A DNA stretch of 64,000 nucleotides from Saccharibacter sp. EH611 (lineage in GTDB: Bacteria > Pseudomonadota > Alphaproteobacteria > Acetobacterales > Acetobacteraceae): assembly GCF_009834765.1 (NCBI RefSeq), contig NZ_WVHP01000022.1, positions 186,001-250,000 of the forward strand, given 5' to 3'. A program made the position numbers and the translations under genes. The first letter of the stretch is position 1. Every line of letters begins with the position of its first letter. The notes beneath the pieces were generated by a model that had not been told where the DNA came from, searched no databases, and worked only from the letters and a program-made list of their open reading frames with translations. Below, piece after piece: positions 57,974-60,210 of the stretch.

Positions 57974-58004
57974 AAAGCCCGGGGATCTTCCTCGGGCTTT
58001 TTTT
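57974..58004. terminator. Terminator between the glycosyltransferase and AbrB-family genes
   Basis: AAAGCCCGGGG pairs with CCTCGGGCTTT (one G-T pair) around five bases, followed by T's on the plus strand and T's on the minus strand from the A-run. It overlaps the end of the converging gene. Confidence 0.85.
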
Positions 58005-59097
58005 ATGACGGTGGTGTTTGCTGATTCTTTGGTTTGTGGCGCTCAAGCCATGTGCCGATTGGGCGTGCAATGAGGGGGCCGAGGATAACGACAGCGAGCA
58101 TACGGGCGGTCTGGAGGGCAACAATAAAGGGGAGCGCTACAGGGATGGATGTGCTGATAATGACGATGGTGTCCAACCCGCCCGGACTTGTCGCTAGATA
58201 GGCGCTAAAAAGGTCGATCTGAGCGAGGCGCGCAACGGGGATGGCTAAAAGAGCACAAACACAGATGAGAATAAAAGAAGAGAGACATACGGCAGGGAGG
58301 GTGTGAAAGGCATAGCACAACACAGCTTTGGTAAATCGAAGGCCAATAGCCCACCCGATCGACATATAAGCAGGAACGCAGAGCCATAAAGGGGTGCTAA
58401 TAGCGAAGAGGCCTGTAAGCTGAGCGATCCCGCCAAGGAATAAGGTGAGAAGCAGCGGCGCAGCCGATAAAGGTAGGCGCATGCCAATGAATGTTGAGCC
58501 TATAATAAGGGCCAGAGTGGGGAAAATATCGCCTTGATGAAGAATTGATAGCGGCGGTAGAGAATGAGATGGTGAATGGGAGCTGCCAACACACCAAGCG
58601 ACCAGTGACGTTGAGAGGGCTACCATAATCACACGGAAATACAGCATAAAAGCTGCAAGCCGTGGGTCGGCTCCAAAAGATTCGCACATGAGAGTCATGG
58701 TCGAAGCGCCACCGGGAGAAGCTCCCCACAGTGCGGTGGTTCCAGGCATATTGCCGAACCAAGCCAGCACAGCTCCGGTGAAAAAGCTGGCGACAATCAC
58801 TGATATCACGCTGAATAGCATGAGCATCCAGTGATGGAGGCAATTTTGGAGAATGTCGATTGAGAGAGATTTTACGATAACGCAGGCAAGGACGGCTTGT
58901 GCGAGACAAAAGATGGGTCGTTTAATCGTTAATTGACGACCGCTTACCGCCATAATAATCCCGGCGATCATGGGGCCCAGCATGGTGCCTGCTGCGAGAT
59001 GTGCGCTGAAGAAGGCAACCGTAAGCACGGCTGACAGCCCTATCAGTACAAGCCAGCGTTTCCCGTACTGATAGGGCGAGAGTGTACCGTGCGCCAT
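58003..59097 (-). CDS. AbrB-family membrane protein
   Basis: A 364-residue polytopic membrane protein of the PF05145 family (unrelated in function to the transition-state regulator AbrB). Two similar halves each contain a re-entrant-looking motif: WGASPGGASTMTLMCESFGAD in the first and ATSPGGLDTIVIISTSI in the second. About ten helices. Transport substrate is unknown. Ends within the terminator of the previous gene; starts 12 bases after the sspB stop. Confidence 0.82.
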   Translation of the reverse strand: MAHGTLSPYQYGKRWLVLIGLSAVLTVAFFSAHLAAGTMLGPMIAGIIMAVSGRQLTIKRPIFCLAQAVLACVIVKSLSIDILQNCLHHWMLMLFSVISVIVASFFTGAVLAWFGNMPGTTALWGASPGGASTMTLMCESFGADPRLAAFMLYFRVIMVALSTSLVAWCVGSSHSPSHSLPPLSILHQGDIFPTLALIIGSTFIGMRLPLSAAPLLLTLFLGGIAQLTGLFAISTPLWLCVPAYMSIGWAIGLRFTKAVLCYAFHTLPAVCLSSFILICVCALLAIPVARLAQIDLFSAYLATSPGGLDTIVIISTSIPVALPFIVALQTARMLAVVILGPLIARPIGTWLERHKPKNQQTPPS

Positions 59098-59109: not shown

Positions 59110-59685
59110 TTAGGAGGGATCTTCCGTGTCGGTGGAGCTCTCTGACTTATTGTGACGTTTGCGGAAAGCGGCAAGGCTGACAACTTCTGCTTCTTGCGTT
59201 TCTTTTTCCTCATGCTGAGGGGTGTTAGAAGCACTGTCAGGTTCATCCTGATAGAGCTCCGGGCCGCCATTGTCCTGCTCAACCTCTGGGGTCGTTCCTT
59301 CAGGGTTAAAGCGGAGCGCAATTTGGATATGCGGGTCAGCAAAGGCCGTGATTGCTTTAAGGGGAATACGCAACGTACAAGGTGTTCCGCCAAAGGAAAG
59401 CCCCACAGAAAAAACGCTACGATCCTCGCTCACAGTTGGGTTAAGGAACTGATGCTGAAGGACGATAGTCATCTCGTCAGGGTAGCGATCCTTTAGACGT
59501 GCAGGGATGTCAACGCCGGGATAGTCTGTGAGGAACGTCATGTAGAAATGATGTTCCCCCGGTAAGCCGTGATGGCATAAATAATCCAAAGCCTTTAGAA
59601 CAACGCCCCGATGTGCGTCTTCTAACCATGTGTCATAGGGTAAAAGGCTCGTAGGGAAGGTCGGGTCGTTTGGATCGTCGCTCAT
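59110..59685 (-). CDS. sspB: ClpXP adaptor SspB, alphaproteobacterial type
   Basis: A 191-residue SspB-like protein. In alphaproteobacteria it tethers SsrA-tagged proteins to the ClpX unfoldase. The folded domain holds ALDYLCHHGLPGEHHFYMTFLTDYPGVDIPARLKDRYPDEMTIVLQH and SVGLSFGGTPCTLRIPLKAITAFADPH; the rest is an acidic linker and a basic C-terminal tail that would contact ClpX. ATG 59685 is taken; the open frame further upstream to 59724 is not conserved. The tmRNA gene lies just upstream on the same strand, so the tag and its adaptor are encoded together. Confidence 0.9.
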   Translation of the reverse strand: MSDDPNDPTFPTSLLPYDTWLEDAHRGVVLKALDYLCHHGLPGEHHFYMTFLTDYPGVDIPARLKDRYPDEMTIVLQHQFLNPTVSEDRSVFSVGLSFGGTPCTLRIPLKAITAFADPHIQIALRFNPEGTTPEVEQDNGGPELYQDEPDSASNTPQHEEKETQEAEVVSLAAFRKRHNKSESSTDTEDPS

Positions 59686-59802
59686 GGATAGCTTGCTACA
59701 CGGTTTAGTGTGAATGGTTCTCAATTTCTGGGCTAGAATGCCACAGATAGCAAGAGAAGAAGGTGTTTTTTTCTGTCTAGAGTGTATTGGGAACCATCAA
59801 GT

Positions 59803-60087
59803 AAGCGTGAGTGGGAGGCTTCTGTTGCCCGGTGCCTCCCGAACCGCGCTTATCGCTTATGCAGCAACAGCGAGCACCTCTGAGTTATCGTTGGCACTTG
59901 TAAAATTTAGCCCGATGACGGCGGTACCATGCCGGGCAAAAAATAGATCTTTACTGTGCGTGTCGAGCCTGTTTCGTCCCCATAGCCCTCCTAAGGAGGG
60001 TCTTGGTGGAGACGCCGGGCACTGCCCCCGGGTCCACTACACCTATTCCATCTATCGTTTATCGCCATAGCCGGAGCGAACCCCGGC
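59803..60087 (-). ncRNA. ssrA: Circularly permuted two-piece tmRNA (ssrA)
   Basis: On the minus strand a 12-codon tag frame (59895 to 59860, stop TAA at 59857-59859) reads ANDNSEVLAVAA, the AxDN...VAA pattern of alphaproteobacterial SsrA tags. The acceptor piece comes first (60087 to about 60004): T-arm-like GGACCCGGGGGCAGTGCCC and CGTCTCCACCA. A 22-base intervening segment with a CCCTCC/GGAGGG hairpin separates it from the coding piece, which starts GGGGACGAAACAGGC at 59981. GGGGACG pairs with CGTCTCC to rebuild the acceptor stem (one G-U). This order, 3' half before 5' half, is the permuted form known in alphaproteobacteria. Ends are approximate. Confidence 0.9.
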
Positions 60088-60094
60088 AAGAGTT

Positions 60095-60123
60095 AAGATA
60101 AGGCGTGTACATATTTTTAGCAA
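60095..60123 (-). promoter_or_regulatory. Probable sigma-70 promoter of ssrA
   Basis: On the minus strand TTGCTA (60123-60118) and TATCTT (60100-60095) are spaced 17 bases apart, with transcription expected to begin about 60087, matching the 5' end of the acceptor piece. Confidence 0.7.
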
Positions 60124-60210
60124 GGGGTGAAAGGCTCACGTGACGAGTGGGGGAGAAAAAGGTTAGAAGGCAGAGAATACGTTTTAGCTTGGTATGGTAG
60201 GAGAAAGCCC

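Follow-up and report, generated by a model that had tools for sequence, protein, structure and literature searches.

In the stretch of the Saccharibacter sp. EH611 genome analyzed here (64,000 nt; hereafter the window), a tmRNA gene, ssrA, is located on the minus strand and is followed on the same strand by sspB and by a gene encoding an AbrB-like membrane protein; thyX (PF02511) lies upstream of ssrA in divergent orientation. The coordinates of the individual features are collected in Table 1. ARAGORN made a single permuted tmRNA call in the window, at 59766-60096 of the minus strand, with the tag ANDNSEVLAVAA, and the Rfam model of the alphaproteobacterial permuted tmRNA, RF01849, scored 258.6 bits over 59810-60127 (cut-off 50, E 4.9e-74). 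The covariance alignment is full length (model positions 1-355), and this is the only RF01849 match in the 2.28-Mb, 25-contig genome. The general permuted model RF04321 also matches the locus (149.5 bits); under permissive Rfam settings no further RNA family was listed between 57900 and 60400, in a listing from which two lower-scoring overlapping matches within the clan are omitted. The initial annotation had proposed a permuted tmRNA with this very tag on the minus strand; the ARAGORN call bears out both, and with a covariance match so far above the cut-off the objection of an absent match falls away.

Table 1. Features of the ssrA-sspB locus in the window.
Feature	Coordinates	Strand	Basis
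-35-like hexamer TTGCTA, ssrA promoter	60118..60123	-	sequence; within conserved CCCTTGC block
-10-like hexamer TATCTT, ssrA promoter, spacer 17	60095..60100	-	sequence; within conserved CCTATATT block
Acceptor piece of tmRNA, ~85 nt, encoded CCA at end	60004..60088	-	Rfam alignment and sequence
22-nt intervening loop, hairpin CCCTCC-TTA-GGAGGG	59982..60003	-	sequence
Coding piece of tmRNA, GGGGAC to 3' hairpin	59810..59981	-	RF01849 end at 59810
Tag reading frame ANDNSEVLAVAA and stop	59857..59895	-	ARAGORN, codons checked
ssrA-sspB gap, no T-tract terminator found, no conserved promoter block	59686..59809	-	scans and alignments
sspB, ClpXP adaptor, 191 aa, ATG at 59685	59110..59685	-	PF04386
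AbrB-like membrane protein gene, start 12 nt past sspB stop	58003..59097	-	PF05145, 243.6 bits
Terminator-like hairpin, 12 pairs, between AbrB-like gene and convergent gene	57974..58000	+	hairpin scan

The anatomy of the RNA is that of RF01849, with the acceptor piece upstream of the coding piece and a removable loop between them. The acceptor strand, GTCTCCACCA as read from the sequence, terminates at 60004; in the acceptor stem, GGGGAC (from 59981) pairs with GTCTCC, which is followed by ACCA. A G-U third base pair, read by alanyl-tRNA synthetase, and an A discriminator make up the alanine identity rule, and the tmRNA of the window carries both. Its 3' hairpin, GGGAGGC...GCCTCCC, ends at 59813 and has seven pairs, six of them G-C; 59810 is the end of the RF01849 match, and the mature 3' end is a prediction. 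The 5' end, placed from the position of the promoter, would lie near 60088. The tmRNA of S. meliloti is described as processed to two pieces of 214 and 82 nt (PMC2873474) and that of Orientia as consisting of two pieces of about 240 and 80 nt (PMC7335160). By analogy with these two, the loop 60003-59982 is expected to be cut out, and the window tmRNA would likewise be processed into two RNAs. The full-length match, the permuted order, the encoded CCA and the ANDN...AA tag are all shared with the RF01849 type, nothing noteworthy differs, and the tag is common to 11 other genomes of the family; ssrA here is thus of the standard circularly permuted alphaproteobacterial type and ordinary in kind.

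Alignments of the region upstream of ssrA from 94 family and 74 other genomes revealed two conserved promoter-like blocks, CCCTTGC and CCTATATT, with low conservation farther upstream; outside the family, the -35-side block reads CCCTTTC rather than CCCTTGC. The first ~39 positions of RF01849 are unpaired in the Rfam alignment and span these promoter-like elements. A simple promoter scan requiring at least 9 of 12 called no site at ssrA of the window, where the hexamer pair scores 8; across relatives, 28 of 107 genomes reach a promoter-like score of at least 9 of 12 in front of ssrA (5 in shuffled sequence) and 9 of 107 do so in front of sspB (6 in shuffled sequence). The positions given by the initial annotation agree with this picture: 60123 is the start of the -35-like hexamer, and an RNA 5' end at 60087 suits the -10-like hexamer at 60100-60095.

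The protein encoded by sspB matches PF04386 with 131.5 bits (cut-off 27), the only such match in the genome, which confirms the proposal that sspB is the next gene on the same strand. It aligns over its core with the PDB relatives 2nys, 2qas and 2qaz and ends in a ClpX-binding-like tail, VVSLAAFRKRH, in which residues 168-177 form the motif VVSLAAFRKR. Of 181 SspB relatives, 124 have the strict motif; looser variants were seen in the 25 tails inspected among the 57 that it leaves unmatched. A tail of this type presumably binds ClpX, and, judging from the sequence, the protein would bind the SsrA tag and deliver tagged products to ClpXP. Family membership, core alignment and tail are shared with Caulobacter-type SspB (2qas, 2qaz, 2nys), which Lessner et al. 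2007 reportedly describe. The core differs from that type at residues 81-83, which read L-N-P in the window (59445-59437, minus) and H-H-P in the other genome of the genus, where the commonest residues are W, D and L (136, 112 and 178 of 181, respectively); P83 occurs in only two of the 181 proteins, both from the window's genus.

The AbrB-like gene is a possible third member of the ssrA-sspB unit. The hairpin at 57974-58000 was called for the plus strand only, as one found against 2.6 expected in shuffles (no excess), and no long run of T comes after its stem on the minus strand; it is therefore not evidence for the end of an sspB transcript. Losing it as the end of the unit weakens the inclusion of the AbrB-like gene and leaves the odds for ssrA and sspB themselves unaffected.

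To place the arrangement in context, gene order was compared in a family sample of 120 genomes (tmRNA in 115, SspB in 115, both in 114, on one contig in 98) and a class sample of 190 genomes (tmRNA in 176, SspB in 168), two genomes, G000 and G040, belonging to both. Among the class matches listed (best 150 per model), both genes were found in 130 genomes and on the same contig in 118; genomes with the two genes on different contigs (16 of 114 in the family and, among the matches listed, 12 of 130 in the class) do not enter the fractions. In 83 of the 98 family genomes, ssrA and sspB share a strand with sspB less than 1 kb downstream; the distance is 1-5 kb in 12 genomes and larger in three. 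The class presents the same pattern among the matches listed, with 98 of 118 genomes below 1 kb, 11 at 1-5 kb, five at 5-50 kb and four farther apart. Neither the 98 family genomes nor, among the matches listed, the 118 class genomes contained sspB within 5 kb of ssrA in another order or on the other strand. Some near-complete small genomes (e.g., G148, G167, G216 and G292) have a tmRNA match and no SspB match among the matches listed.

Since the order is shared across the class, the arrangement is ancestral or very old and not local or recent. On this comparison of sequences, we take it to be inherited from an early alphaproteobacterial ancestor and not special to the window genome. The adjacency in Acetobacteraceae that had been put forward for checking is accordingly present in the window's family and is not specific to it. 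In Escherichia coli, ssrA and sspB have the same functions, the tmRNA is a one-piece molecule, and sspB sits beside sspA rather than near ssrA. The closeness of trans-translation genes recalls smpB-ssrA neighbourhoods (PMC4131195), a survey of smpB neighbours whose accessible text does not mention sspB. Lessner et al. 2007 and Chien et al. 2007 aside, no statement on a class-wide ssrA-sspB order was found in the accessible text of the literature searched; further sources cited, likewise in their accessible parts, are PMC3985003, PMC8138137, PMC11915505 and PMC10117765.

The gap between the two genes is usually short. From the tag stop to the sspB start it measures 171 nt in the window, with a median of 160 nt in 91 family genomes and of 135 nt in 92 others, the latter including at least two with a doubtful start choice (G181, G264). 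When the gaps of 70 family and 74 other genomes were aligned, no conserved promoter block was detected, and conservation was limited to the start of sspB and the 3' hairpin of the tmRNA. The loop of this hairpin is longer than the 8 nt allowed in the terminator scan, and the hairpin was therefore given a scan of its own: in the window, the best 8 nt after it contain three T. On these grounds, read-through from ssrA into sspB, with one promoter supplying both tag and adaptor, is the slightly favoured reading for the window. It could instead be that the genes adjoin and are transcribed separately, with ssrA terminated by Rho or at the 3' hairpin and sspB driven by a weak promoter in the gap, a quite credible alternative that falls somewhat short of being probable. 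The missing T-tract in the window, the short gaps and the lack of a conserved promoter in the aligned gaps argue against separate transcription, whereas the G-C-rich 3' hairpin itself argues for it, as do 46 of 196 genomes (22 of 101 family, 24 of 95 other) with at least five T in 8 nt after that hairpin, in which termination there is possible. The other genome of the window's genus (G101) has five T in 8, with the hairpin drawn differently by the scan. Of 74 family gaps, 8 contain a small terminator-like hairpin, where shuffled sequences give 2.0; for the other genomes, the corresponding figures are 2 of 81 gaps and 1.7. An inverted repeat in the window's gap, TTGATGGTTCCCAAT ... ATTGAGAACCATTCA at 59711-59800, contributes to a fold with a z-score of -2.3 and is possibly a processing site or a product of chance.

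The larger gaps also bear on this question. Of 14 genomes with a gap above 1 kb, 11 have an oppositely directed ORF (ORFs called mechanically) separating ssrA from sspB, a fifteenth such genome, G304, standing outside the count; there, sspB probably needs its own promoter, which again speaks for separate transcription. No integrase was recognised by eye among the ORFs of the 14 larger gaps. In four small-genome family members (G029, G066, G070 and G116), oppositely directed genes split ssrA from sspB, so that sspB can be expressed alone there and adjacency is not indispensable. The intervening genes at loci L219, L220, L221 and L222 look by eye like an HldE-like kinase/nucleotidyltransferase and an epimerase-like gene, with smaller ORFs in two of them. 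At two loci with ssrA and sspB far apart, L234 (G263) and L235 (G131), the 3' hairpin as drawn by the script is atypical and no T-tract follows.

T content after the hairpin did not differ between 168 genomes with adjacent genes and 28 in which the genes are non-adjacent or sspB is absent from the fetched stretch (p = 0.85). T content being independent of adjacency, there is no sign of selection for read-through. This result would also suit an order that persists merely because nothing breaks it, given the short distance and vertical inheritance, with no functional coupling; so would the genomes in which a distance above 5 kb separates the genes (3 of the 98 family genomes and, among the matches listed, 9 of the 118 class genomes). 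We nevertheless regard such neutral persistence as unlikely, as the proportion of class genomes with the genes under 1 kb apart exceeds what we would expect under neutral rearrangement. Shared control of tag and adaptor, suggested in the initial annotation from their being neighbours, is thus reasonable in view of the order conserved across the class, the conserved ssrA promoter region and a gap free of a T-tract; the common transcript it may imply is plausible.

Next, tag composition was analyzed. Loci were available for 213 genomes, 16 of which gave no ARAGORN tag, leaving 197; 14 of these had no sspB in the fetched stretch, and two with short SspBs (G181, G264) were then dropped, leaving 181. 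The tags of the 101 family genomes have 12 residues in 55 genomes, 11 in 28 and 13 in 18, and ANDNSEVLAVAA recurs exactly in 12 of them, the window included, so the SEVL middle, originally regarded as unusual, is nothing of the kind. An N-terminal ANDN is present in 188 of 197 tags and a C-terminal AA in 196.

It had further been suggested that tag and adaptor co-adapted in the window's lineage. The 11 other genomes with ANDNSEVLAVAA have SspB cores 55-71% identical to that of the window (mean ~62%), and the 79 family genomes with other tags have a mean of 58% and a maximum of 64%; four of the 11, including the one from the same genus, exceed 64%, which kinship can explain. The ten same-tag genomes outside the genus keep L83 with SspB cores 55-67% identical, and the genus-specific L-N-P at 81-83 comes without a matching tag change, although P83, against the L of nearly all other SspBs, could itself be read in favour of co-adaptation. 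Partial Mantel tests, which have limited power, related tag-middle distance to SspB-core distance with tmRNA-body distance held fixed as a stand-in for kinship, and gave a partial correlation of 0.042 for the 91 family genomes (reached in 101 of 500 permutations) and of -0.020 for 84 genomes outside the family (344 of 500). The pooled set yielded a weak correlation of 0.13 (175 genomes, 0 of 500), a point for co-adaptation that pooling can by itself produce and that may arise from the two-group structure. A sister-pair test of tag against SspB change per column (81 pairs) was rejected as confounded by divergence (rho 0.58): tag changes rise with divergence, and low p-values can therefore not be read as linkage. 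With the same tag beside diverged SspBs, ANDN nearly universal and no correlation within or outside the family, co-adaptation is not supported by these comparisons, and we consider it highly improbable for the window's lineage.

A separate group of tags is much longer. In 6 of the 197 genomes, the tag has 20-30 residues and a normal-looking stretch precedes the resume codon. ARAGORN error was considered as their origin; the bases before the resume codon are normal in six of nine odd tags, so these six long tags are probably real. For G124 (together with its relative L243) and G181, the odd tags look miscalled and were kept out of the long-tag set; the tag of G272 (ANNN...) has an ordinary length. 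Long-tag relatives were searched in the orders of G229, G259, G264 (with G132) and G297, G139 being added singly (loci L238, L240 (G229), L241, L242, L244-L254, L256, L258-L265 and, for G139, L091). ARAGORN returned 26 tags for 28 loci; the motif count omits one duplicate, L240, as well as L243 and L255, whose short tags are doubtful. Of the distinct long tags, 24 in number and 19-33 aa in length with that of G139 counted in, 19 contain A-N-x-N and five lack it; 1000 shuffles gave 4.7 tags with the motif on average and 11 at most, a comparison that overstates independence, as the tags are related within lineages. The motif lies away from the tag start in 18 of the 24 and has moved inward or been repeated in most long tags of five small-genome lineages. 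Some Anaplasmataceae tags also repeat an AND motif. The long-tag genomes measure ~0.9-2.4 Mb, and one example of their tags is AKDMNAFGRMAANLNASNLNGVGVAAAAAA.

Adjacency holds in this group too: sspB adjoins ssrA in 27 of 29 loci, the exceptions being a contig-end fragment and a sub-threshold match. Of the 46 SspB positions that are at least 85% conserved in the ANDN genomes, 35 retain their residue in 70% or more of 28 long-tag proteins and 11 do not. At each of positions 24, 72 and 105, three or four of the five long-tag lineages depart from the usual residue, mostly by conservative changes; these would count in favour of co-adaptation, and from the alignments they could reflect drift or fine adjustment to the tag.

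Taken as a whole, the locus is very probably explained by a standard permuted ssrA followed by sspB in an inherited order, serving two-piece ribosome rescue and SspB delivery. A precursor RNA would start near 60088 at the conserved sigma-70-type promoter; the loop 60003-59982 would be excised as in tRNA maturation, and the resulting acceptor and coding RNAs would be held together by the acceptor stem. Charged with alanine, this two-piece RNA would rescue stalled ribosomes and add AANDNSEVLAVAA, whereupon SspB would bind the AND-N end of the tag and pass the product to ClpX, which would recognise the terminal AA. Some transcripts probably continue past the 3' hairpin into sspB.

We also put forward, tentatively and as something rather less than probable, that the pair is an ancestral dual-output unit, in which tmRNA maturation sets the 5' end and the amount of the sspB mRNA, and that an A-N-x-N docking motif is what is selected, not its position. 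If the former is true, one conserved promoter would yield both a stable RNA and a read-through adaptor mRNA; if the latter is true, motifs moved inward or repeated would perhaps represent multivalent docking on the SspB dimer. The gene pair is ordinary in itself, and its value lies in the class-wide order, together with the finding that comparison lends co-adaptation no support. As most genomes of the class sample retain the ssrA-sspB order, a coupling between the supply of tag and that of adaptor would be testable in model alphaproteobacteria.
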